Source: Chroogloeocystis siderophila 5.2 s.c.1
Lineage (GTDB): Bacteria > Cyanobacteriota > Cyanobacteriia > Cyanobacteriales > Chroococcidiopsidaceae
Assembly: GCF_001904655.1 (NCBI RefSeq)
Contig: NZ_MRCC01000007.1
Coordinates: forward strand, 186,001 to 250,000
Length of the DNA stretch: 64,000 bases
Direction of reading: 5' to 3'
The stretch's first letter is position 1. Every line of letters starts with the position of its first letter. Both the position numbers and the translations under genes were made by a program. This document shows positions 1 through 10,017 of the stretch, in pieces. A model generated the notes under the pieces. The model saw nothing but the letters and a program-made list of their open reading frames with translations, made no database searches and had not been told where the DNA came from.

Positions 1-700
1 TTAAGGGTAGCTGACAAGTATCAAATGGGTATTTGTACGCCAGCATCTTGAGATGAATTGCCGGATCTTTATGACCTGTAAAGCCAATGAATCGAACCTT
101 TCCCTGTTGTTTGGCTTGTTCTAGGGCTTCAATCACACCACCTTGGGCAAAATGTAGTTCAGGGTCGTTGTCGTAAATCACTTCATGAATTTGCCACAGA
201 TCGATGTAATCGGTTTTTAACCGTTGTAAAGATTGCTCTAACTGCTGCATTGCTACGCGGGCATCACGCCCATGCGTACAAACTTTTGTCATTAAAAACG
301 CTTTGTCACGTCTTCCGCCTTGCAGCGCTTGACCCATTAATTCTTCGCAGCGCCCCTTACCATACTCCCAAGCGTTATCCAAAAAATTCACACCTGCGTC
401 AATTGCTTCTTGAACAATCCGCACCGCAACTTGGTCATCTTTGATGTTACCGAGGTGTGCGCCTCCAAGCGATAAAGCAGAAACTTCTACTCCTGTTTTA
501 CCTAACATCCGTCGCGGGATTGTACCAAAATCCTCACTTGCATTTACTGCTTGACTTTGTGTTGCTGCTGAGGTGTTGTGTTTTTGCCAGATGAGATAGG
601 CGATCGCGCCTCCAGCACCAATGATTCCTGCACGTTGCAGAAATTGCCGTCGTTGCCAATCAAGCGAGTACTTTTGTGGTGTTCCTGATTCTTCCACCAT
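1..700 (-). CDS. Aldo/keto reductase with twin-arginine leader (3' end outside window)
   Basis: Read on the minus strand from ATG at 700; 233 residues are visible and the gene runs off the left edge. A good Shine-Dalgarno (GGGAGGTGA) precedes the start. The N-terminus has a twin-arginine-like motif (RRQFLQRAG) followed by a hydrophobic Gly/Ala stretch, so export by Tat or membrane anchoring is likely. The rest is an AKR barrel: the tetrad Asp/Tyr lie in DNAWEYGKG, the Lys in MTKVC and the His in WQIHEV. The family performs NAD(P)H-dependent carbonyl reduction; the substrate cannot be told. A terminator for the gene to its right lies at 742-763, so it probably has its own promoter. Confidence 0.85.
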   Translation of the reverse strand, partial: MVEESGTPQKYSLDWQRRQFLQRAGIIGAGGAIAYLIWQKHNTSAATQSQAVNASEDFGTIPRRMLGKTGVEVSALSLGGAHLGNIKDDQVAVRIVQEAIDAGVNFLDNAWEYGKGRCEELMGQALQGGRRDKAFLMTKVCTHGRDARVAMQQLEQSLQRLKTDYIDLWQIHEVIYDNDPELHFAQGGVIEALEQAKQQGKVRFIGFTGHKDPAIHLKMLAYKYPFDTCQLPL

Positions 701-741
701 CAGCTATCACCTCCCTTTTCCTATTAGCACTCCTTGATTGT

Positions 742-763
742 AAAAAAACCTACCTTCAGGTAG
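742..763 (-). terminator. Rho-independent terminator
   Basis: On the minus strand CTACC-TGAA-GGTAG forms a 5-bp stem with a tetraloop and is followed by G and seven T. It lies downstream of the small gene at 823-1128 and upstream of the aldo/keto reductase start. Confidence 0.6.
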
Positions 764-785
764 TAGAGAGTGAAGAGCTTACTTA

Positions 786-808
786 AGGGCTAACGGTGAG
801 GCGTTGCG
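786..808. repeat. Possible attC half-site
   Basis: GGGCTAACGGTGAGGCGTTG directly follows (on the minus strand) the stop of the 823-1128 gene. GTTAGCC, read on the minus strand, resembles an attC R' core, and CACCGTTAGC resembles the arm of the attC-like site at 5243-5334. The partner arm is not evident, so this is a weak call. Confidence 0.25.
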
Positions 809-822
809 GAAAGAGTAATGAT

Positions 823-1128
823 TTAAGCGAAAAAAGCCCAAAGTACCTCAACGATTCGGTAAATGTCGCAATCACCCTTCCAAACTTCGCGTTCAGCTTT
901 GTAGTCCAGAACTCTCACTAGATGAGTGACATATCCTTGCTGTCTGAGCAAAATCAAATTGCCCTTTTCAGGTCTATTGGCATTAGCTTCATCATCTTTC
1001 CATGCCAGTTTAAACAGATCAGAAACTTTAAATTGTGAATACGCCCACGCACCATCACCACGCCTCACGTTTTTGGTCCACTTCAGACCTTGTAAATCCA
1101 TGTCAATTTTTACTGGAACAATTGACAT
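823..1128 (-). CDS. Hypothetical protein, 101 aa
   Basis: A 101-residue soluble protein with no signal or membrane segment. It has mixed charge, with a conserved-looking core around GNLILLRQQGYVTHLVRVLD and an aromatic C-terminus (IVEVLWAFFA). I do not recognise the family. It sits in the same orientation as the ParDE-like pair to its right, is followed by a terminator and is flanked by attC-like sequence, so it could be a captured gene cassette. This is inference from context only. Confidence 0.5.
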   Translation of the reverse strand: MSIVPVKIDMDLQGLKWTKNVRRGDGAWAYSQFKVSDLFKLAWKDDEANANRPEKGNLILLRQQGYVTHLVRVLDYKAEREVWKGDCDIYRIVEVLWAFFA

Positions 1129-1216
1129 GGATTTTTTGGTAACTAAAACTATTGCTTAGGCTCTAGCTGTAGATATCTCACCAATAGCCTTGAAATGCGT
1201 CCCCACCGAAAACTGA

Positions 1217-1310
1217 GGCGGCATAACGTTTCCCCTTCAGCAGCAGCTAGTAGCCTTTGCATCTTCACTAGAATTTCGATGCTGTCCGTTGCAGCGCAGT
1301 GTTAGGCGGC
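1217..1310 (-). other. attC-like recombination site
   Basis: Read on the minus strand this begins GCCGCCTAACACTGCGCTG (GCCTAAC fits the R'' core RYYYAAC), contains TGCAAAG in its centre, and ends GTTATGCCGCC. The outer TAAC/GTTA and GGCGG arms are inverted. It lies 13 bp past the stop of the ParE-like toxin, the usual place for attC in a cassette. The inner arms are only partly complementary, so the site may be degenerate. Confidence 0.45.
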
Positions 1311-1322
1311 TGGCAACTTCAA

Positions 1323-1613
1323 TTACTTGCGGCTTTTCCAGTATCCAGGCTCACGACTATAATGCATGACCGCCAAAATCAGAATGTAGTCCTGCTCAAT
1401 TGTATAGAGAACACCATAAGGAAACTTACGCACCATACACCGCCGAACATCTTCATCAATCTTAGCGTAACGAGTTGGAGACACCCTAATCCGGTAAACT
1501 GTATCCTCGATCACGTTTATAAATGCTTGAGCTATCTCAACTCTCTGCTCTGTGTAGTATCGAACTGCTTCAGCGTATTCATTCAGCGCTTCAGGATGAA
1601 ATACGTACCTCAC
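1323..1613 (-). CDS. RelE/ParE-family toxin
   Basis: A 96-residue protein with the ParE/RelE fold pattern: FHPEALNEYAEAVRYY at the N-terminus, RRCMVRKFPYGVLYTIE in the middle and VMHYSREPGYWKSR at the C-terminus. Family members inhibit gyrase (ParE) or cleave mRNA on ribosomes (RelE); the sequence looks closer to the ParE-like group. It overlaps the upstream antitoxin by ATGA at 1610-1613, indicating translational coupling. Length is normal. An attC-like site follows the stop, which fits a toxin-antitoxin cassette of an integron array. Confidence 0.85.
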   Translation of the reverse strand: MRYVFHPEALNEYAEAVRYYTEQRVEIAQAFINVIEDTVYRIRVSPTRYAKIDEDVRRCMVRKFPYGVLYTIEQDYILILAVMHYSREPGYWKSRK

Positions 1614-1840
1614 GGCTCAATCAGCCGTCTGACTTGTGCTAAAGCGTCTTCACCTGAAATTGGCTGAACAGAACCATTTCGCACCTCATCTCTTCGGCGC
1701 TTGGACTCAGTTACCCAAACTGCCTGAATTGCTGAGTCGGTATCGAACTCCAAGCTTTCCACCAACTTGTCTGCCAGGATTGCTCTTGACTCACTAGGTA
1801 GGGACAATATTTCCTCAGTCAGTTGCTCAATTGACCGCAT
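1610..1840 (-). CDS. Addiction-module antitoxin
   Basis: A 76-residue protein beginning MRSIEQLTEEILSLPSESR, matching the short addiction-module component family (TIGR02574 type) that precedes ParE/RelE toxins in cyanobacteria. It is helical with an acidic and hydrophobic N-terminal half and probably neutralises the toxin encoded by the overlapping downstream gene. The ATGA overlap sets the gene order antitoxin then toxin. Autoregulation is typical but no operator was identified. Confidence 0.85.
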   Translation of the reverse strand: MRSIEQLTEEILSLPSESRAILADKLVESLEFDTDSAIQAVWVTESKRRRDEVRNGSVQPISGEDALAQVRRLIEP

Positions 1841-1977
1841 AATCCCAATTCCTCTCAGAAAGCTGCTATCCTAAATAATTGTATCAAAATCTGACATGAG
1901 AAGAAATTCAGGAAGCAGTCGCCCCACCTCAGGGCTATGTTAGGTAGCTACGAGTTAAGCACAGCCAGTACCAGCTT

Positions 1978-2489
1978 TCATTGTTGCACAGCAGCAGATA
2001 CAAACGTATCCGAAGCTGAGTCAGTACATATTAATGTCATGCGCATTCCATCAGCAGATATAGTTCCTGAACACTGTCCCCTTGACTGTCTACCCGACTG
2101 ATACTGAATAGCATACCTGGACTCAAAAGTTCTTCCAGTGATTGTGCCACTGCCTGACGACTCAAAGGGATCAGCCAGTACTGCACCCCATGTTTTAAAT
2201 TGCAACTCATTCCCATCTTGGATTACCTCATAGATGTAACCTAATGTGCGATCAAACCATCTGCTACTAATGTTTAGATTTGAATTTGAGGTGGATGGAG
2301 TCGGTGTTGGTGAAGGACTCGGTGACGGCGGAGATGGCGAGAGACTGGGGGTTGATGTTAGAGGTTTTTTATGAATTCACTATACCACCATGGAGAAGTT
2401 CCACCAACAAGAATTGTTATGACAACTGTTGGAATAATCTTACTCAGGAGACTACTCTTTTTCTCATCACCATTATTGTCGTTTGACAC
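1978..2489 (-). pseudogene. Membrane-anchored hypothetical protein with a frameshift at A6
   Basis: Frame 1 starts at GTG 2489 (AGGTGA eight bases upstream) and encodes SNDNNGDEKKSS, then a transmembrane helix (KIIPTVVITILVGG). It ends at TAA 2360-2358 after about 43 residues. The -1 frame continues from the same spot with a Ser/Pro/Thr linker (PSPSPSPTPTP) and a globular domain with one Cys pair, ending at 1978. The frames meet at A-AAA-AAC (2370-2364). A seventh A, or a -1 ribosomal slip, restores one protein of about 170 residues with an N-in anchor, a Pro-rich stalk and an outer domain. The domain family is not recognised. Confidence 0.6.
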
Positions 2490-2593
2490 TTCTTCGCTCA
2501 CCTTACTTTGGGTTGGCTATTACTACTGCTGCTTCATCCACTACGCATATTGTTATGTGTTTGGAAACTAATCTTCAACTTCAGAGACAGTCT

Positions 2594-2693
2594 CACGTTC
2601 CTGCTCACCGGACGTGGATAGTCTTTGCATAATAACCAATTAATTCTCGACGGTCAGCATGCATGGGCTTTGTTAGATACAGCTTTGTTAGGC
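2594..2693 (-). other. attC-like recombination site
   Basis: On the minus strand it has GCCTAAC (2693-2687) and ATCTAAC (2678-2672), both fitting the RYYYAAC core. TGCTGACCGTCG (2659-2648) pairs imperfectly with CGTCCGGTGAGCA (2614-2602). The loop contains TGCAAAG and the block CGTCCGGTGAGC, both shared with the site at 6450-6549, which argues for common ancestry. The distal GTTRRRY core is not clear. Confidence 0.45.
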
Positions 2694-2820
2694 ACAATTT
2701 ATTAGTATCTTGACAGCAGAACTCTCACTTTGACAATTATTACTTGAGGTTCCACATCTGTCTTTTGATCAACCATTCGCCTGAGTCCTCTTGGTGAAAA
2801 AGCCAAGTCTTTGTGTTTTT

Positions 2821-2995
2821 TTGACACTCCGCGCACTAAATTGACGCGGATTCTTGGGTCATTAGGGAGCTAACGCTTAACCCCTCGCCAAGCAGCAGCT
2901 TCACCGTATGTCCTACGGCTGTGAGTCCTCGCTGCATCACTACCTGAGCAGCCGCAATATCTCTATCTAAACTTGTCACATTCTCCAAATCTAAA
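2821..2995 (-). pseudogene. TnpB C-terminal remnant with IS200/IS605-type right end
   Basis: On the minus strand 2967-2836 reads DRDIAAAQVVMQRGLTAVGH and ends at TAG. This is the characteristic C-terminus of TnpB, following its zinc finger and the last catalytic Asp (the first D). Just upstream the DNA still resembles a CLECGTSLDRD zinc-finger segment but is out of frame. The end TTGACACTCCGCGC...GCGGATTCTTGG (2821-2856) is a typical IS200/IS605 terminal hairpin. The rest of the element is absent. Confidence 0.75.
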
Positions 2996-3029
2996 TTGTC
3001 TTATTGGTAGCAAGTACAAGAGGCTAACC

Positions 3030-4916
3030 ATGAAGACACTCCTCCGCATTGATGCAAGCGTTCGAGTCGATGGCTCAAACACCCGAATTCTCACAGACTA
3101 TTTTCAAAGCAAGTGGCTAAGCGCTAATCCAGGCAGTAGTGTTATTCAACGCTGCCTTAGTAGTAATCCTGTCCCACATATTTGTAATGAAACGATAGAA
3201 GCATTTCAGCATTCAAGCGGGACGTCAAATGGAAGTACGCTTTCCGATACTTTAATCGATGAGCTTAAGAAGGCAGATCATCTGCTGATCGGTAGCCCTC
3301 TCTACAACTTTACTCTCCCATCAACCCTCAAAGCCTATTTCGATCACGTTGTACGCTCAGGATTCACCTTTGGGGTCCGGCAGGGAACTTATCGGGGACT
3401 GCTCAACGGCAAGGGCGCAACAGTGATTACTGCCCGAGGTGGCAAAAGTTCACTAGAATACGAGGACGATTTTCAGACAGCATATTTCAGAGCAATTCTT
3501 TCATTTATAGGAATCAACTCAGTAGATGTCATTGCACTGGAAGGCACTGCTCTGGGGCAGGAGTCCAAAGAGAAGGCATTATCTTATGGCAAGCAACAGG
3601 TGGATTGGTTGTTTGATCGGACAGATGTTCTAGTTTGGCAAGGCGAGTTCACTGAAAAGGACAAGCAGCAAATTGAATACCTGCGTGCTGGTCAGGCAGA
3701 TGCTATCACTAAAGGGGATGCAGATGCCTATGTCGGGCTTTGTACAGACGACATCCACCTACTAATTCCCTCCCATGAGGTTGTTTCAGGATGCGCTGCT
3801 TTCCTGAACGCAGAGAAGGCACTTTTTAGCACCATGAAGTTTGCTCATTTTCAAAAATTTCCTTTTCACATTGAACGAAGCGGAAATTTAGCCTTTGAAA
3901 TGGGTCGTCAAAAAGTCATCATGCATAAACATGATAGTAGGTCTAATGGCGTATTCTCTACCTACCAAAAATACACTCATATTTTCCGTCTAACTTCTCA
4001 AGGCTGGCGCTTTGCGGTACTCATGTCAAAGATGACAGACGAAAGAACTCTCATTTTTGAGCAAAACCGCCAAACCCTTGAAGGCATTGCCTATCGCATG
4101 CTGGGTGATCTCTCCGATGCTCGAGATGTCGTGCAAGAAACCTACCTCAAATGGCGCGAGGTTGATTTTAGCAGTTTGCATTCTCCACGGGCATGGCTGA
4201 TTACGGTATGCAGCCGTACTGCATTGAACCAACTTCAATCTGCTCGCACGCGAAGAGAACTATATGTTGGCACGTGGCTACCAGAGCCATACCTTGATAA
4301 GCTTAGCCAAGATCCGAGTGCTCAGGTAGAGTTAGATGACACTGTATCAGTAGCCCTACTACTAGCGTTAGAACGATTATCACCTCCAGAGCGGGCAGCG
4401 TTTCTACTGCATGATGTGTTCGATCTCAGTTTTGGTGAAATTGCAAGCATATTAGGGAAAAGCAACGCTAGCTGCCGCCAGTTAGCCACTCGTGCTCGTA
4501 GGCGAGTTCAGGAACAGCGTCCCCGCTTTCACACTACCCCCGAAGAGCACCATAAGCTACTCTATGCCTTTATCAGTGCAGCGAGACAGGGAGATCTGGA
4601 ACAACTTATGGCTGTACTGTCCAACAACGTAGAACTATATTCCGATGGTGGCGGTAAGGTAGAGGCTCTATTTGATATTCTTCAGGGAGCAAATCAGGTA
4701 GCCAGATTCTTCATATCGATATTTGATCGCTACCACCAGCGGAACATTGCAGTTCAAACCCTAATGCTACGATTCAATGGTGTGCCAGGAATTCTCATCT
4801 ATGAAAATGGGCAATTGGCGACGGCATTGACTATTGACGTTTATGCAGAACAAATTCACCATCTGTATGCGATTCGCAATCCAGACAAGCTGAGCGATTT
4901 TCCAGCTAAAAGTTGA
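3030..4916 (+). CDS. Azoreductase-like / SnoaL-like / ECF41 sigma factor fusion
   Basis: One 628-residue ORF from ATG 3030 (AGAGG upstream; an extension to 2973 overlaps the TnpB remnant and is unlikely). Residues 1-200 are a flavodoxin-fold FMN-dependent NADH azoreductase (LLRIDASVR, GSPLYNFTLPSTLKAYFDHV). About 207-330 is an NTF2/SnoaL-like domain. About 340-628 is a full ECF sigma factor of group ECF41: region 2 (AYRMLGDLSDARDVVQETYL), WLPEPY at 416, region 4, then a C-terminal SnoaL-like extension with DGGGK (539-543) and NPDKL (617-621). ECF41 factors are normally separate genes next to an oxidoreductase; here they are one polypeptide. Internal ATGs at 4023 and 4032 could also give free sigma factor. 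Confidence 0.85.
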   Translation: MKTLLRIDASVRVDGSNTRILTDYFQSKWLSANPGSSVIQRCLSSNPVPHICNETIEAFQHSSGTSNGSTLSDTLIDELKKADHLLIGSPLYNFTLPSTLKAYFDHVVRSGFTFGVRQGTYRGLLNGKGATVITARGGKSSLEYEDDFQTAYFRAILSFIGINSVDVIALEGTALGQESKEKALSYGKQQVDWLFDRTDVLVWQGEFTEKDKQQIEYLRAGQADAITKGDADAYVGLCTDDIHLLIPSHEVVSGCAAFLNAEKALFSTMKFAHFQKFPFHIERSGNLAFEMGRQKVIMHKHDSRSNGVFSTYQKYTHIFRLTSQGWRFAVLMSKMTDERTLIFEQNRQTLEGIAYRMLGDLSDARDVVQETYLKWREVDFSSLHSPRAWLITVCSRTALNQLQSARTRRELYVGTWLPEPYLDKLSQDPSAQVELDDTVSVALLLALERLSPPERAAFLLHDVFDLSFGEIASILGKSNASCRQLATRARRRVQEQRPRFHTTPEEHHKLLYAFISAARQGDLEQLMAVLSNNVELYSDGGGKVEALFDILQGANQVARFFISIFDRYHQRNIAVQTLMLRFNGVPGILIYENGQLATALTIDVYAEQIHHLYAIRNPDKLSDFPAKS

Positions 4917-4936
4917 TAACTTTTGAGAATTCTAAT

Positions 4937-5116
4937 ATGAGTGTTTTCAGAGATATAAGCATGGCACTACTAGGTGGTTGGGTTATCGGAATAGTATTTG
5001 GTTGGTTGAAGTTGCCTGCCCCGGTTCCCCCATTAATTGGTTTAATTGGTGCGACGGGGATATTGATTGGCGGCTATTGCTACAGCTTGTTAGTTCGGTT
5101 ATTTACAAGCTCATAA
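4937..5116 (+). CDS. XapX-domain (DUF1427) small membrane protein
   Basis: A 59-residue protein from ATG 4937. An upstream in-frame start at 4913 would overlap the previous stop. It has two hydrophobic segments (ALLGGWVIGIVFGWL and IGLIGATGILIGGYCYSLL) separated by the conserved KLPAPVPP turn that marks XapX/DUF1427 proteins. These small inner-membrane proteins have no established function and are often next to oxidoreductase or hydrolase genes. It begins 20 bp after the azoreductase-ECF41 fusion, so the two are probably cotranscribed. Confidence 0.85.
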   Translation: MSVFRDISMALLGGWVIGIVFGWLKLPAPVPPLIGLIGATGILIGGYCYSLLVRLFTSS

Positions 5117-5242
5117 GGGATAGAACAGAAACCCTGGTTGGCTGAAAAAAACTCTCGAAACCCTAATTCATTTGTAGGTTGAATTCCCTTTGTCAACCCA
5201 ACAATTTCCTACTTATCAGCTCTGTCTGTTACTCTAGCAATC

Positions 5243-5334
5243 GCCAGCTAACCCTTGCGTGCAACGGACGGACTGAAAACCCCTAGCTTCGTTTCAATAT
5301 AATCTGCCGCCGGTGACGCTCGCCGTTAGCTGGC
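5243..5334. other. attC-like site with perfect 10-bp terminal inverted repeat
   Basis: GCCAGCTAAC (5243-5252) is exactly inverted by GTTAGCTGGC (5325-5334). Internal arms also pair imperfectly (TTGCGTGCAACGGACGG against CCGCCGGTGACGCTCGCCG). Total length is 92 bp, within the range of attC sites, with core TAAC/GTTA triplets at the ends. It sits between XapX and the antitoxin/doc pair. The same decamer recurs at the end of doc (5994-6003). Confidence 0.55.
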
Positions 5335-5421
5335 TTCGTTTTCGGGCTGGGAGGTACAGGGAGGTTATCGGTATGGAGTGTGTATTAAACTTGATGCAGA
5401 AACACTAGGAGAGCGATTGCG

Positions 5422-5619
5422 GTGGCTTCTATCACAATTGATCTTTCAGACAGCCAATTCCAAAAGCTACAGGATTTAGCAAAAGCACATGACATTGCGA
5501 TTGAAGTGCTGTTGAAGGCGAGCCTAGAAGATTGGCTAAATCTGCAAAAAGGTGATTTTGTTAACACAGCCGATTATGTGCTCCTGAAGAATGCTGAACT
5601 GTATAGACGTTTGGCATGA
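5422..5619 (+). CDS. Antitoxin of Doc-type toxin
   Basis: A 65-residue protein (MASITIDLSDSQFQKLQDLA...) with a short beta strand followed by helices, suggesting a ribbon-helix-helix or Phd-like DNA-binding antitoxin. Its C-terminus would wrap the toxin. It overlaps the downstream doc-like gene by ATGA at 5616-5619, the usual coupling of type II toxin-antitoxin pairs. The assignment rests mainly on position; sequence alone is not diagnostic of the antitoxin class. Confidence 0.75.
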   Translation: MASITIDLSDSQFQKLQDLAKAHDIAIEVLLKASLEDWLNLQKGDFVNTADYVLLKNAELYRRLA

Positions 5620-6002
5620 TCCGCTATTTGACGTTAGTAGAGATATTAGAATTGCATCGCAGAATTCTTGAGCAATCCGGTGGAGCGTCAGGTATCCGAG
5701 ATATAGGTTTGTTAGAGTCAGCGATCGCCCAACCTCGCATGACGTTTGGTGGAGAAGATCTGTACCCAAGCTTGCTGGAGAAAGCAGCAGCATTAGGGTT
5801 TTCGATCATCATGAATCATCCATTTGTAGATGGAAATAAACGTACAGGTCATGCTGCAACGGAAACTTTTCTTGTTCTGAATGGCTTGGAAATTAGCTCC
5901 TCTGTGGATGAGCAAGAGCGTTTGGTGTTGGCGATTGCAGCAGGTGAGCTAGAGCGCAAGGCACTTGTAGAATGGTTGCAACGGAACACAACCGCCAGCT
6001 AA
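5616..6002 (+). CDS. doc: Death-on-curing (Doc/Fic) toxin
   Basis: A 128-residue protein with the Fic/Doc catalytic loop HPFVDGNKRTG at residues 68-78, complete with His, Asp/Asn and Arg. The N-terminus (YLTLVEILELHRRILEQSGG) and the GLLESAIAQPRMTFGG segment are typical of Doc. Doc phosphorylates EF-Tu in the P1 system; related Fic enzymes AMPylate. It forms a type II pair with the overlapping antitoxin. Its stop codon lies inside a copy of the attC-end decamer GCCAGCTAAC, so the C-terminus abuts a recombination site, as in integron cassettes. Confidence 0.88.
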   Translation: MIRYLTLVEILELHRRILEQSGGASGIRDIGLLESAIAQPRMTFGGEDLYPSLLEKAAALGFSIIMNHPFVDGNKRTGHAATETFLVLNGLEISSSVDEQERLVLAIAAGELERKALVEWLQRNTTAS

Positions 6003-6016
6003 CAAGTCGTTGGAGC
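5994..6016. repeat. attC half-site overlapping doc stop
   Basis: GCCAGCTAAC at 5994-6003 is identical to the terminal decamer of the attC-like site at 5243-5252 and is followed by AAGTCGTTGGAGC, a common attC arm. No opposite arm follows before the GFA gene, so the site appears truncated, fusing two former cassettes. Confidence 0.4.
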
Positions 6017-6031
6017 AAAGAGGAGAAGCTT

Positions 6032-6442
6032 ATGACTGATGAAAAACTTGAGGGTGGCTGCCTTTGCGGGGCTATCCGATACCGAGTTTCTGGTGAGCCT
6101 GTCATGGCAGCAATTTGTCATTGCTCTATGTGCCGCCGAGCAAACGGAGCTCCTACCGTCGCTTGGGCAATGTATCAAGAATCGCAAGTTGTTTTTGTCA
6201 AAGAATCACCCAAATTATTTGCGTCTTCCGCAGAAGCAAAGCGCGGTTTCTGTCCAGTCTGCGGCACACAGATTAGCTTTACTGCTGAATTTATCCCTGG
6301 CTTAATCGACATCACCATCGGCAGCCTTGACCACCCGGAAATGGTTACTCCGACACTTCATTACTGGGATTCTAGACGGTTGCCTTGGATACAATTTGCC
6401 GACGATATGCCCAGATTCTCCGAATTTCCACCTACTGAATGA
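6032..6442 (+). CDS. GFA-family (glutathione-dependent formaldehyde-activating-like) protein
   Basis: A 136-residue protein from ATG 6032, chosen for its AGAGGAGA ribosome site; a longer frame from 5972 would run through the attC half-site. It carries the zinc ligands of the GFA fold: GGCLCGAIRYR (C10, C12), ICHCSMCRRANG (C29, C31, C34) and FCPVCGTQI (C74, C77). Family members are zinc-bound glutathione-binding proteins; formaldehyde activity is proven for only a few, so the specific substrate is unknown. Flanked by attC-like sequence on both sides, it is probably cassette-borne. Confidence 0.88.
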   Translation: MTDEKLEGGCLCGAIRYRVSGEPVMAAICHCSMCRRANGAPTVAWAMYQESQVVFVKESPKLFASSAEAKRGFCPVCGTQISFTAEFIPGLIDITIGSLDHPEMVTPTLHYWDSRRLPWIQFADDMPRFSEFPPTE

Positions 6443-6449
6443 AGCCAAT

Positions 6450-6549
6450 GCCTAACATGGCGCTCAACGGTCGCGCTCACCGGACGCAGATCACCTTTGC
6501 AACTCAACCGACTATATTGGTGCGTTCCGGTGCAGTGCGGTTGTTAGCC
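6450..6549 (-). other. attC-like recombination site
   Basis: On the minus strand it runs from GGCTAAC (6549-6543) to GTTAGGC (6456-6450), the latter fitting GTTRRRY exactly. Arms CGCACTGCACCGGAACGC and GCGTCCGGTGAGCGCG pair with a few bulged bases, as attC folds do. It shares TGCAAAG and CGTCCGGTGAGC with the site at 2594-2693. It lies 16 bp past the ferredoxin-like stop, oriented as expected for cassettes diverging from intI at 8111. Confidence 0.6.
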
Positions 6550-6564
6550 TGTATGGGAGTATGC

Positions 6565-6954
6565 TTACAAATCTTTCAAAAATGGGTTACGCGCAAACAT
6601 AAATTCTTCAACAGGTTTGCCTTCCAACAAATGTTCTTGGATAATGCGTTCACAGACCTCCGCTGTAACGTGACAATACCAAGTCCCTTCAGGGTAGACA
6701 ACTGCAAGCGGGCCACCTCGACAAAACATCAAACATTCCACTTCTGTGCGATAAATGTTGTGTCCATCTTGAGTAAGTTGCTTTAGTCGTTTACCCAGAT
6801 ATTTCCAAGTTTTAGCACCTTCTTCAGCAGGGCAACAAGTATCTCCACTTTGGCGCAACCCAGTACACAACAAAATATGTCGTTCATAACCACCTTGCCC
6901 ATTAACAGCAATACCTCGTGATTTAGCCTTCTTTTGCAAAGGTTTTGTATCCAT
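6565..6954 (-). CDS. Thioredoxin-like (2Fe-2S) ferredoxin
   Basis: A 129-residue protein with a thioredoxin-like ferredoxin pattern: HILLCTGLRQSGDTCCP (C30, C40, C41) and VECLMFCRGGPLAVVYPEG (C74, C78). The latter four-residue-spaced pair followed by Gly-Gly is typical of the family that includes NuoE-like and cobalamin-linked ferredoxins. It should carry a [2Fe-2S] cluster and act in the cytosol; its partner is unknown. It starts 13 bp after the methyltransferase on the same strand, probably one operon, and is followed by an attC-like site. Confidence 0.85.
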   Translation of the reverse strand: MDTKPLQKKAKSRGIAVNGQGGYERHILLCTGLRQSGDTCCPAEEGAKTWKYLGKRLKQLTQDGHNIYRTEVECLMFCRGGPLAVVYPEGTWYCHVTAEVCERIIQEHLLEGKPVEEFMFARNPFLKDL

Positions 6955-6967
6955 AACGAGTAGTACT

Positions 6968-7789
6968 TTAAGGATGGTTGGAAATTGCAGTATACAGGCG
7001 TGTGCGATAAATCAACCTTACAGAACTCTGGCGATCGCAGAAGCGTTGCTGGAACACGGCTAAGTCTGACATGAGTTTTTCTAAACCTTTTCCTTCGGAT
7101 GGCGTAAATCCTTGACTTCGGGCTAAACCTACTAGCCCTGTGAAATCAAGGTCTTGACTAGACACAAACTCATGTCGCCGTAAGTTTGTAAAGTAAGGTA
7201 GCCATAACCCTTGCCAAAACAGTTGATAACGTATGCTCTTAAACCATTTGTTCAGTTGTACTCCAGATTGGGATTGATGCTCTCGATCTTTGGATGCTTC
7301 AAAAACCAAGCGAGTGTAGTCTTTGGAAACAAGGTCGTCTTGATCCCAAAAACTCCATATTAATGCTAAACGTCCACTGGCTTTGAGGATACGGCGAAAT
7401 TCTTTGAGACTTTTGTCAAAATCAAACCAATGGAATGCTTGAAACGAGGTAACTAAATCGACTGATGCATTCTTGAGAGGAGTCTGCTCGGCAGTTCCAG
7501 CCAGAAAATCTACTCCTTCGTGTGGGGTCGCTGCCCTCCTCATGTCTTCGTTGGGTTCAATCGCTACAACCCGAACGCCTCGATCTGCCAACAATCTTGC
7601 GCCAATCCCCGTGCCTGCACCAACATCGACAGCAGTAATCTGAGTCGGAGATTCCAAACCCGACAAAATTGTATCAATCGCAGAAGCAGGATAAATCGGG
7701 CGATACTTTTCATAGTCATCGCCTCGATCAGAAAAATAGCTCAGCGGATTCGCGATCGAATCTGAAGCAGTGGAGAAATCAAAACTCAA
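6968..7789 (-). CDS. Class I SAM-dependent methyltransferase
   Basis: A 273-residue protein. Motif I VDVGAGTGIGARLL (54-67) binds S-adenosylmethionine, an acidic residue follows at IEPN, and motifs IV-VI match the UbiE/Methyltransf_11 group (VDLVTSFQAFHWFD, LKASGRLALIWSFWDQ). The N-terminal YFSDRGDDYEKYRPIYP is characteristic of this small-molecule methyltransferase subfamily. Substrate unknown. It is the first gene to the left of the palindrome array and the integrase pseudogene, transcribed away from them. Confidence 0.88.
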   Translation of the reverse strand: MSFDFSTASDSIANPLSYFSDRGDDYEKYRPIYPASAIDTILSGLESPTQITAVDVGAGTGIGARLLADRGVRVVAIEPNEDMRRAATPHEGVDFLAGTAEQTPLKNASVDLVTSFQAFHWFDFDKSLKEFRRILKASGRLALIWSFWDQDDLVSKDYTRLVFEASKDREHQSQSGVQLNKWFKSIRYQLFWQGLWLPYFTNLRRHEFVSSQDLDFTGLVGLARSQGFTPSEGKGLEKLMSDLAVFQQRFCDRQSSVRLIYRTRLYTAISNHP

Positions 7790-7858
7790 TTTCTGACCTC
7801 GCTGCGAGTTGCATTCTTAGACTAACTCAGAAACCAAGATTGCAGGCTAACTATTTAT

Positions 7859-8103
7859 TATACGGAAACTTTCCATATAATCTTTTTCTTGCTCGAGATA
7901 TGTCAAGCATTACAGCTAACTCCTATGTAAATATATGGAAAATTTCTTTTTTACATCCCTGTTCGGGAGTTATACCGAATTCTTCCGGATAAATACCCTT
8001 CCCGAGAGGATTATATGGAATTTTTCCGTATATCCCTTGGGGTTATGCAGAATTTTTCCAGATAACATCCTGATCAGGAGTCTTAAACGGAATTTTCTGT
8101 ATA
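7859..8103. repeat. Chain of alternating palindromes upstream of the integrase
   Basis: Six imperfect 21-bp palindromes of the form TAT-n-CGGAA-TTT-TTCCG-n-ATA occur at 7859-7879, 7932-7952 (degraded), 7971-7991, 8012-8032, 8044-8064 and 8083-8103. Between the last five are shorter GC-rich palindromes: CCCTGTTCGGGAG, CCCTTCCCGAGAGG, CCCTTGGGG and TCCTGATCAGGA (perfect). Start-to-start spacing is 32-41 bp. The block ends just before ATG 8111 of the integrase pseudogene, where attI and the intI promoter would lie. Function is unknown. Confidence 0.75.
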
Positions 8104-8110
8104 ACATCCT

Positions 8111-9079
8111 ATGGAACAATGTCCGAAAAAGCTGCTTGAACAAGTACAAGACGCGATCCGTCTTAAGCACTATTCTTACCAAACAGAAAAAACTTATATT
8201 TACTGGATTAGACGCTACAACATCCTTTTTTATAATAAACGCCATCCGAAGGATATGGGAAGTGCTGAAATTGAAGCATTTTTAACGCATCTGGCGGTTC
8301 ATGAAAATGTGGCGGCATCAACACAAAATCAAGCACTTCATTCTGTTTTATTTTTATATCGAGAAGTATTAAAACAGGATTTAGATATAAAGGTTGATGC
8401 AGTACGTGCAAAGAAATCTAAATATTTACCAACAGTTCTGACAAAAGATGAAGTTTTCGCAACTATCCAACACTTATCGGGTGTACATCAACTTTTAATT
8501 AAATTACTTTACGGTACAGGGCTACGATTAAATGAAGGATTGAACCTAAGAGTTAAAGATATTGATTTTGCTCAAAATCAAATTACAGCACGCGATACAA
8601 AAGGTAATGAAAGCCGAGTCACAATGTTACCAGAAAGTATAGCTGAAGAATTAAAAATTCATTTACAAAGCGTAAAAATTTTACATCAACAAGATTTACA
8701 AAAAGGCTATAGTTCGGTTTATTTACCTTTTGCATTAGAAAGAAAATATCCCAGAGCGAAGTACGATTGGATGAATGCAGTTTGTTTTTCCTTCTGGTAG
8801 CATCTCTAGAGACCCGCGTAGTGGAGAAGTTCACCGCCATCATTTACATGAGAGTAGTCTACAAAAAGCCCTCAAAAAAGCAGTTCGTCAAGCAGGTATT
8901 CAAAAAAGGTGGGTTGTCATACATTTCGACATAGTTTTGCTACCCACTTACTCCAAAACGGCTACGATATCCGCACGGTACAGGAATTACTTGGACATAA
9001 GGATGTCAAAACAACGATGATTTATACCCATGTGCTCAACCGTGGTGGTAAGGCTGTTCGTAGCCCACTTGATTTGTAA
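8111..9079 (+). pseudogene. intI: Integron integrase (IntI), two frameshifts
   Basis: A tyrosine recombinase of about 323 residues spread over three frames: 8111 to about 8775, 8775 to about 8908, and 8909-9079. Identification as IntI rests on [38 protein letters not shown] and the IntI-specific insertion ([12 protein letters not shown], then [20 protein letters not shown]). Catalytic residues are all encoded if frames are joined: Arg139, the HTFRH His and Arg, the LLGHKD His, and Tyr in MIYTHVL. The first shift is near 8771-8776, the second after the A6GG run at 8902-8909. As it stands the enzyme cannot be made. Confidence 0.9.
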
Positions 9080-9144
9080 AGAGTCGGTTAGCGTTTATGA
9101 ACAACTGAAGTTTCTCACTCAGTAAAAATCTTGCGCTTCACGTT

Positions 9145-10017
9145 TTACAAATACTTCTGCAATAACAAGTGCAATTTCTCTTTTGTCGCCGCAGGTGCTT
9201 GATCCAATCGAGTCAAAATTGCGTATTTTAGTGCTGAGTGGGCTTCTGATGGCGGTGGATTCTGACTTAAGCGGCGTACGGTTTCTTGAATGACTTTTTG
9301 AGCATTTGTTGCATTGCGTTGCAAGTTAGCAATCACCATTTCTACTGTAACGCTGTCATGATTGGGATGCCAGCAGTCGTAATCTGTCACAAGTGCTAGT
9401 GTTGCGTAGGCGATTTCTGCTTCACGTGCCAATTTGGCTTCGGGTAAATTTGTCATTCCAATGACAGTTGCGTCCCAACTCCGGTAGAGATGCGATTCTG
9501 CTTTAGTAGAAAATGCGGGACCTTCCATACATATGTAGGTTCCGCCACGATGTAGTGTGACATCAGGTAAGTTGAGGCTAGCGATCGCCTCTGCCAAAAT
9601 TCCAGCTAGTTGATGACAAACTGGGTCGCCAAACGCAATATGCGCCACAACCCCTTCACCAAAAAATGTTGAAATTCGATTTTTTGTCCGGTCAATAAAT
9701 TGATCCGGTACTACCATATCAAGTGGCTTTACTTCCTCTTTTAACGAACCAACGGCAGAAGCGGAAATCAAATACTCGACTCCCAACTGCTTCATTGCAT
9801 AAATATTGGCACGAAAAGGTAGTTCCGATGGCAACAAAGTATGATTGCGACCGTGACGTGCTAAGAAAGCAACTCTTGTTTCGTCTAAGGTTCCTAATAT
9901 TACTGCATCTGAAGGCGAACCAAACGGTGTAGATAATTGTACTTCTTCAATATCTTTAAGCGCATTCATCTTATATAAACCGCTACCACCAATGATTCCT
10001 ATTTGAGCTTGAGCCAT
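9145..10017 (-). CDS. mtnP: S-methyl-5'-thioadenosine phosphorylase
   Basis: A 290-residue protein of normal length for MTAP. It cleaves 5'-methylthioadenosine to adenine and methylthioribose-1-phosphate in methionine salvage, in the cytosol. Visible motifs are [10 protein letters not shown] (phosphate site, 6-15), PFGSPSD (31-37), [10 protein letters not shown] (51-60), [12 protein letters not shown] (164-175), [15 protein letters not shown] (188-202) and TDYDCWHP (211-218). The Pro-Glu-Ala and Asp-Tyr-Asp regions match MTAP-type purine specificity. It stands alone, convergent with the integrase pseudogene and marking return to ordinary chromosome. Confidence 0.95.

Follow-up and report, generated by a model that had tools for sequence, protein, structure and literature searches.

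We report a single open reading frame of 628 aa (positions 3030–4916, + strand) that joins an azoreductase-type domain, an NTF2-like domain, and an ECF41 sigma factor, as identified by ORF calling, Pfam, and NCBIfam in a 64,000-nucleotide stretch of the cyanobacterium Chroogloeocystis siderophila 5.2 s.c.1 (the whole stretch is referred to below as the window). It is a real, rare variant of the known ECF41 operon, and our favored explanation, held with good confidence, is that the partner enzyme and the sigma factor of an ECF41 operon have been turned into one chain. The domains, the frame, the promoter motif, the enzyme–NTF2 fusion in two genomes, the separate sigma gene of the ortholog, and the purifying selection were computed here.

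Domain composition of the fused protein

The N-terminal module (aa 1–193; positions 3030–3608, +) matches the Pfam family Flavodoxin_2 over aa 3–189 (1.5e-38) and aligns with solved azoreductases (best 5.3e-30), including the NADH-azoreductase 1v4b (7.1e-30). It contains PLYNF and TARGG, which belong to the conserved motifs of the FMN site. Among the 11 rows of alignment A2, 19 columns are invariant, including those of window residues S10, S16, P90, Y92, T134, and G138. The NCBIfam azoreductase cut-offs are not reached (61.3 bits vs. 188 for NF010075; 59.3 vs. 143 for NF002370), and hence the domain is a diverged relative that can be called azoreductase-type only.

The second module (aa 213–331; 3666–4022, +) was assigned by Pfam to the NTF2-like families DUF4440 and SnoaL_3, with full-chain matches over aa 221–329 of 6.1e-9 and 1.6e-8, respectively. 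Scored alone, it clears the gathering thresholds of both families (31.1 vs. 25.2 bits and 29.3 vs. 22 bits). A search of solved structures with the sequence of this domain yielded no relative up to E = 1, and its single-sequence structure model is of low confidence (pLDDT 40).

The remainder of the chain (aa 335–628; 4032–4913, +) is a complete ECF41 sigma factor with its C-terminal SnoaL-like extension. Pfam recognizes Sigma70_r2 (aa 342–406; 8.8e-13) and Sigma70_r4_2 (aa 441–492; 2.2e-14), and two NCBIfam models cover aa 337–625, namely, TIGR02957 (5.9e-98; 327.5 bits vs. a cut-off of 323.25) and the SigJ model NF007214 (1.6e-97; 326.2 bits vs. 271). The solved structure of SigJ (5xe7) aligns over nearly the entire sigma part, C-terminal extension included (3.1e-52); taken by itself, the extension matches SnoaL_2 only weakly (0.0038, below gathering). 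All residues invariant across 36 aligned sigma factors are kept. The motif WLPEP (W416–P420), situated in the linker between sigma2 and sigma4 and named as an ECF41 motif in passages of PMC3426412, occupies conserved ECF41 columns together with DGGGK and NPDKL, the letters of the latter two being absent from the text of that paper. A preliminary description of this DNA had proposed a flavodoxin-fold oxidoreductase, an NTF2-like domain, and an ECF41 sigma factor, the last from WLPEP, DGGGK, and NPDKL. The Pfam and NCBIfam domain search bears out all three modules, and TIGR02957, NF007214, and the motif columns confirm the ECF41 assignment.

No anti-sigma family was found among the nine neighboring ORFs scanned, two of which had no match at all. 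The second-best match to the sigma part in the window's own genome is so weak (E 8.6e-4, 24% identity) that no second ECF41 is seen there. In the AlphaFold model of the whole chain (pLDDT 62), the sigma part reaches about 90 over most of its length and the rest is mostly below 50; with confidence limited to the sigma part, the model says nothing on contacts between domains.

Reading frame and junction

From ATG 3030, the frame runs for 628 codons to position 4916 (+) without interruption, just as the preliminary description had stated, and the two other forward frames contain 31 and 44 stops across 3030–4916. GC3 is uniform across the azoreductase, NTF2, and sigma parts (0.42, 0.40, and 0.41, respectively). 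The frame stays open 5′ of ATG 3030, with a TTG start at 2973; a possible ribosome-binding site for ATG 3030, AAGAGG, was located by anti-Shine-Dalgarno duplex energy at 3018–3023 (+). A small DUF1427 ORF (4913–5116, +; Pfam 3.8e-7) lies directly 3′ of the fusion.

A class-wide search identified one ortholog, the locus L185 in the genome G698, which belongs to another cyanobacterial family. There, an azoreductase–NTF2 ORF of 334 aa (1501–2505) ends with TGA and is followed, after 7 nt, by the sigma ATG 2513 in a different frame. In the DNA alignment of the window with L185 (A5), the junction of the NTF2 and sigma parts (4023–4035, +) is 19 nt shorter in the window, and the missing stretch spans the stop codon and the 7-nt spacer of the ortholog. 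Since 19 equals 1 modulo 3, the frames of the two genes come together in the window. A deletion in the window would be a simpler reading than an insertion in G698, because the other ECF41 genes considered here are separate, with the one ortholog leaving the direction of change unpolarized.

The window and L185 share 72, 69, and 75% of amino acids in the azoreductase, NTF2, and sigma parts, and the respective Nei-Gojobori dN/dS ratios are 0.111, 0.097, and 0.118, which are rough values, as synonymous sites are near saturation (pS 0.62–0.70). The linker between the azoreductase and NTF2 domains has a ratio of 0.27 over 19 codons. The fusion of these two domains is common to two families, and the ratios of about 0.1 in each domain point to purifying selection on all modules since the copies parted. 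Sigma was found joined to them in the window genome only, so that these ratios refer to the modules and not to the joined form. In L185, the azoreductase domain has S (TARGS) where all rows of A2 have G (G138 of the window), and hence flavin binding may not be under strict conservation. The operon of the ortholog comes after methyltransferase-like and P-loop-like ORFs, assigned by eye, on the same strand (L214, 6214–9859).

Could the joined frame be an error? Two genes with an ATGA-type overlap would be fused by a one-base length error in a short run of A's, and it is true that the ortholog has two genes, that the joined form occurs in a single genome (43 contigs), and that the base after ATG 4032, an A in the window and a T in L185, completes a TGA stop right at the overlap when read in the alternative frame. 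However, a run of only three A's is no homopolymer of the error-prone kind, the bulk of the 19–20 nt by which the window differs from the ortholog lies beyond any base-calling slip, and the genome is rated at 99.81% completeness and 0.13% contamination. We therefore consider a sequencing or assembly error distinctly unlikely, although the junction may reflect an error or else a natural change of very recent date. The preliminary description had set against its own reading the case of homologues that are always separate genes combined with an assembly error here: the first part is in line with the separate sigma gene of L185, and the second fits poorly with the 19-nt difference at the junction, which exceeds a simple base-calling slip, although a one-base error there may still have occurred.

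A second alternative accepts the joined frame and supposes that internal initiation at 4023 or 4032 also yields free sigma factor, in which case the covalent link would have little regulatory meaning. Both ATGs, pointed out in the preliminary description, are present in the sequence, and ATG 4032 aligns with the sigma start of L185; in stand-alone ECF41 ORFs, too, an ATG lies near this position, by the script rule used to set their starts. Shine-Dalgarno pairing 5′ of 4023 and 4032 is nevertheless weaker than 5′ of 3030 (−3.0 vs. −5.8 kcal/mol), and we regard internal initiation as conceivable, if on the unlikely side. At the sigma start of the ortholog, translational coupling is possible.

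Promoter of the fusion gene

A pattern search revealed an ECF41-type promoter, TGTCACA-n16-TGTC, at 2974–3000 (+), with 29 nt between it and ATG 3030. The 64-kb window has no other match to TGTCACA-n14to19-YGTC, with 0.34 matches expected. As 25 of 100 shuffled sequences had at least one match, it is the position and the conservation of the motif that carry weight. The motif, the spacer, and the 29-nt distance are identical in L185 (1445–1471; ATG 1501), and TGTCACA-n16-CGTC is found 5′ of the azoreductase gene in 12 of the 19 separate azoreductase–sigma pairs described below (13 of 20 with L185 and its ECF41-type motif). Genome-wide, the pattern has nine matches, equal to the nine of the reversed control, i.e., background; among them, the one at 2974–3000 alone directly precedes a clear gene start, and another precedes a weak ORF of 96 aa.

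Passages of PMC3426412 give the ECF41 consensus as TGTCACA-n16-CGTC before COE partner genes, with two mapped promoters carrying TGTT or CGTC; the −10 element of the window, TGTC, is one base off each of these forms. According to the same passages, the partner genes, along with sigma if cotranscribed, are the only detectable targets of ECF41. With an ECF41-type promoter so close to its start, the fusion gene probably drives its own transcription.

Separate azoreductase–sigma pairs and search for further fusions

Among 47 sigma loci from genomes of the phylum other than the window's own (batches of 18, 3, and 26), 19 have an azoreductase gene directly upstream of ECF41 in tandem (9/18 and 10/26 in the two batches concerned). 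The other 28 loci lack an azoreductase gene at this place, and thus the pairing is common and not a rule. The stop between the two genes is retained in all 19 pairs, none of which has a match to the NTF2 domain. The gap is at most 13 nt in 15 of the 19, with the sigma start set by the script rule, and the two ORFs share a frame in 13 vs. about six by chance, several of the loci being near-copies. At L013, L014, L017–L020, L022, L203, L205, and L210, the ORFs are in frame, 3–6 nt apart, and separated by a single stop, mostly TAG, so that the loss of one stop would fuse the genes; two consecutive stops stand between them at L207 and L209.

Three overlapping draws of genomes from the cyanobacterial phylum (291, 386, and 388), each including the window's own and with three or four candidates scored per genome, yielded one three-module chain, that of the window, and one partly joined ortholog, that of G698, which was in the 388-genome draw only. 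Of the architecture that the preliminary description had proposed to look for elsewhere, the azoreductase–NTF2 part thus recurs in G698, and the three-module chain is confined, within these draws, to the window genome. The ortholog is present in one of 63 genomes in the family and order of G698, i.e., G698 itself, and the fusion in one of 19 genomes of the window's family, again its own. The NTF2 domain alone was found in one of 291 genomes of the order, the window's own.

Among plasmids, the NTF2 domain had no match up to 0.01, and none of 681 matching records reaches 80% coverage. Phages gave 15 matching records, restricted to the azoreductase part, and a viral collection contained four relatives of the sigma part and none of the azoreductase part. 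A scan of genome contigs with the single protein confirmed nothing; in a scan with the alignment, the best 80 of 582 confirmed stretches (590 in total) included no ORF joining sigma to an azoreductase or NTF2 domain. Since these were the best 80 stretches only and few candidates were scored per genome, rare relatives of the fusion may be missed.

Several candidates were rejected. Matches reaching 5′ of sigma at L062, L064, L076, L052, and L054 are chance extensions, several of them across stops, and long stop-free N-terminal extensions (e.g., L099, L087, and L133) were judged from the look of the sequence to be chance as well. Two loci were considered as three-part relatives: L061, with sigma, an ORF that appears VOC-like by eye, and an azoreductase, has no match to the NTF2 domain of the window, and L056, in which an azoreductase is followed by an NTF2 gene, has an NTF2 domain unlike that of the window by BLAST or phmmer. 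At L056, on plasmid pB of Chroococcidiopsis sp. CCNUC1 (1372–3747), an IS701-family transposase gene (1672–2988) lies between two sigma-matching stretches. L076, on an Acidobacteriaceae contig (1160–3318), has two tandem ECF41-like stretches, the first split over several frames.

Evolutionary origin of the sigma part

In the maximum-likelihood tree of 109 sigma rows, which excludes L185 and L186–L211, the window sigma is placed beside that of Cerasicoccus frondis (97/95), and both fall into a 48-row, mainly Pseudomonadota set (98/88). A cyanobacterial clade of 21 rows (100/98) does not include the window sigma; three more rows of the phylum (L015, L035, and L036) are also outside it. In view of this position, an origin of the fusion in place, out of the cyanobacterial azoreductase–sigma pairs, was dropped as an explanation. 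The tree of azoreductases places the query without resolution, on a branch of 2.14. Just 5′ of the Cerasicoccus sigma gene lies an ORF with a weak match to carboxymuconolactone decarboxylase (0.0057, below gathering), another class of partner. Taken with the position in the sigma tree, this difference in partner suggests that the window sigma is of horizontal origin and has changed partners.

Genomic setting

The window is collinear with the same-genus genome G085 over 1–799 and again from about 9144, and the interval between these segments is about 2.3 kb in G085 vs. 8.3 kb in the window; hence, the fusion sits in a strain-variable region. The region also contains a GFA gene, genes of toxin–antitoxin type (ParE and Fic), and a truncated integron integrase (8111–8800, +; TIGR02249 at 4.3e-81, above the cut-off, profile positions 1–214 of 315). 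Three attC-like elements were noted: a repeat 5′ of the fusion ending with GTTAGGC (2595–2693, +), of which 2595–2642 is 71% alike to 6467–6514 and whose own fold is weak; a hairpin, AGCTAAC ... GTTAGCT, 3′ of the fusion (5246–5331, +), found by hairpin search; and a repeat, GCCTAAC ... GTTAGCC (6450–6549, +), relatives of which occur in 14 of the 18 further genomes of the family.

The patterns used for attC followed its core form with paired R″ and R′. The strict core pattern has no match in 600–9200 and one elsewhere in the window; the loose one has 28 matches in these 8.6 kb vs. 219 in the other 55.4 kb, i.e., no clear enrichment. Counts of loose-pattern hairpins in the region vs. the rest are 3 vs. 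8 at a score of at least 0.5, 2 vs. 2 at 0.6, and 0 vs. 1 at 0.7. Of 30 copies of the 6450 repeat, 4, among them that of the window, yielded the core pair. On balance, 800–9140 is a possible to probable cassette region and may represent a cyanobacterial chromosomal integron in decay.

A 25-nt unit occurs in four imperfect copies at 7855–8064, just 5′ of the integrase fragment; two of the copies form an inverted pair, and a similar unit adjoins an attC-like repeat in L160. In the 11.4 kb around L185, up to the end of its contig, inspection of the listed ORFs by eye brought up no integrase, and matches to the four repeats of the window were poor (best E 0.035). Rfam gave one chance-level match (24.5 bits vs. 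a gathering threshold of 90).

Proposed mechanism and its alternatives

The ancestral form suggested by the ortholog would have been an ECF41-type promoter followed by the azoreductase–NTF2 enzyme gene, a stop, and the ECF41 sigma gene. Loss of the stop and the spacer would have joined the two frames in the window genome. The sigma factor within the chain would then bind RNA polymerase and activate the promoter from which the chain itself is transcribed; the result would be an autoregulated chain with the enzyme and sigma in a 1:1 ratio. Sigma output would be limited mainly by the C-terminal SnoaL-like extension, as in the ECF41 factors studied in passages of PMC3426412 and PMC8999054, and the attached flavoenzyme would reduce quinone- or azo-type compounds, the oxidoreductase being the output of the system. 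From the computed features we infer the direction of change, the one-chain protein, the enzyme activity, and the autoregulation. As sigma is unattached in the ortholog, an operon of this type does not need the covalent link.

The preliminary description went further and proposed a redox switch, in which sigma would be gated directly by the azoreductase domain according to its flavin (FMN) or quinone state. The covalent link itself, the conserved azoreductase motif residues kept in the window, and the status of COE genes as conserved partners and targets of ECF41 in passages of PMC3426412 would all fit. Nevertheless, the sigma gene is separate in L185, where the S at the G138 column suggests that flavin binding is perhaps not strictly kept; the structure model, with pLDDT mostly below 50 outside sigma, is silent on domain contacts; and the passages of PMC3426412 report the partner YdfG to be without effect on Ecf41Bli, as data not shown. 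Direct redox gating thus seems unlikely to us, and the same applies to the broader notion of a natural single-chain switch, made up of a flavoenzyme, an NTF2-like ligand-binding domain, and the ECF41 sigma factor under autoregulation, in which the redox, ligand, or dimer state of the enzyme directly gates transcription of its own gene, which we would likewise doubt. If true, such a switch would be, as far as our searches go, the first covalent partner–sigma link in ECF41 and would show that COE partners belong to its signaling. We retain the reading of a partner–sigma operon turned into one autoregulated chain.

The case is of wider relevance, as ECF41 is a widespread group whose known targets are the partner enzymes. 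A signaling role of the partner was sought in one case, YdfG, and not seen, according to passages of PMC3426412. The enzyme–NTF2 partner is present in two distant cyanobacteria, joined to sigma in the window and separate from it in G698, which provides a ready-made pair for asking whether a physical link alters the control of sigma.

Comparison with known systems

ECF41 genes are tied to oxidoreductase genes as partners, with Flavodoxin_2 among those listed in passages of PMC3426412 (Wecke, 2012), and this agrees with the statement of the preliminary description that ECF41 factors are encoded beside oxidoreductases. Compared with the ECF41 factors and COE partners of those passages, and with SigJ (5xe7), the window protein has the same arrangement of sigma2, WLPEP, sigma4, and the SnoaL-like extension and the same TGTCACA-n16 promoter 5′ of the oxidoreductase partner. 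The difference is that the window partner is fused to the NTF2-like domain and to sigma, whereas theirs are separate genes. The azoreductase–sigJ pair on plasmid NC_020051 of Gloeocapsa PCC 7428 (WP_015328572/WP_015328571) has the same gene order, promoter type, and close spacing, but it consists of two genes, lacks the NTF2 domain, and has a sigma factor from a clade other than that of the window.

No oxidoreductase–ECF41 chain is described in the titles and abstract starts of the papers listed by our searches of the open-license PMC literature. In other ECF groups, fusions are reported in passages of PMC8999054, namely, a YCII domain fused to an ECF (Q9A8M4_CAUVC) and anti-sigma fusions in ECF36 and IutY. 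There, as in the window, a neighbor protein has become part of the sigma chain; the groups and the partners are different, the window partner being an N-terminal oxidoreductase–NTF2 protein. What is known, then, is the fusion of neighbor proteins to other ECF groups, and what is new, within the reach of our searches, is an oxidoreductase–NTF2 partner joined to ECF41.
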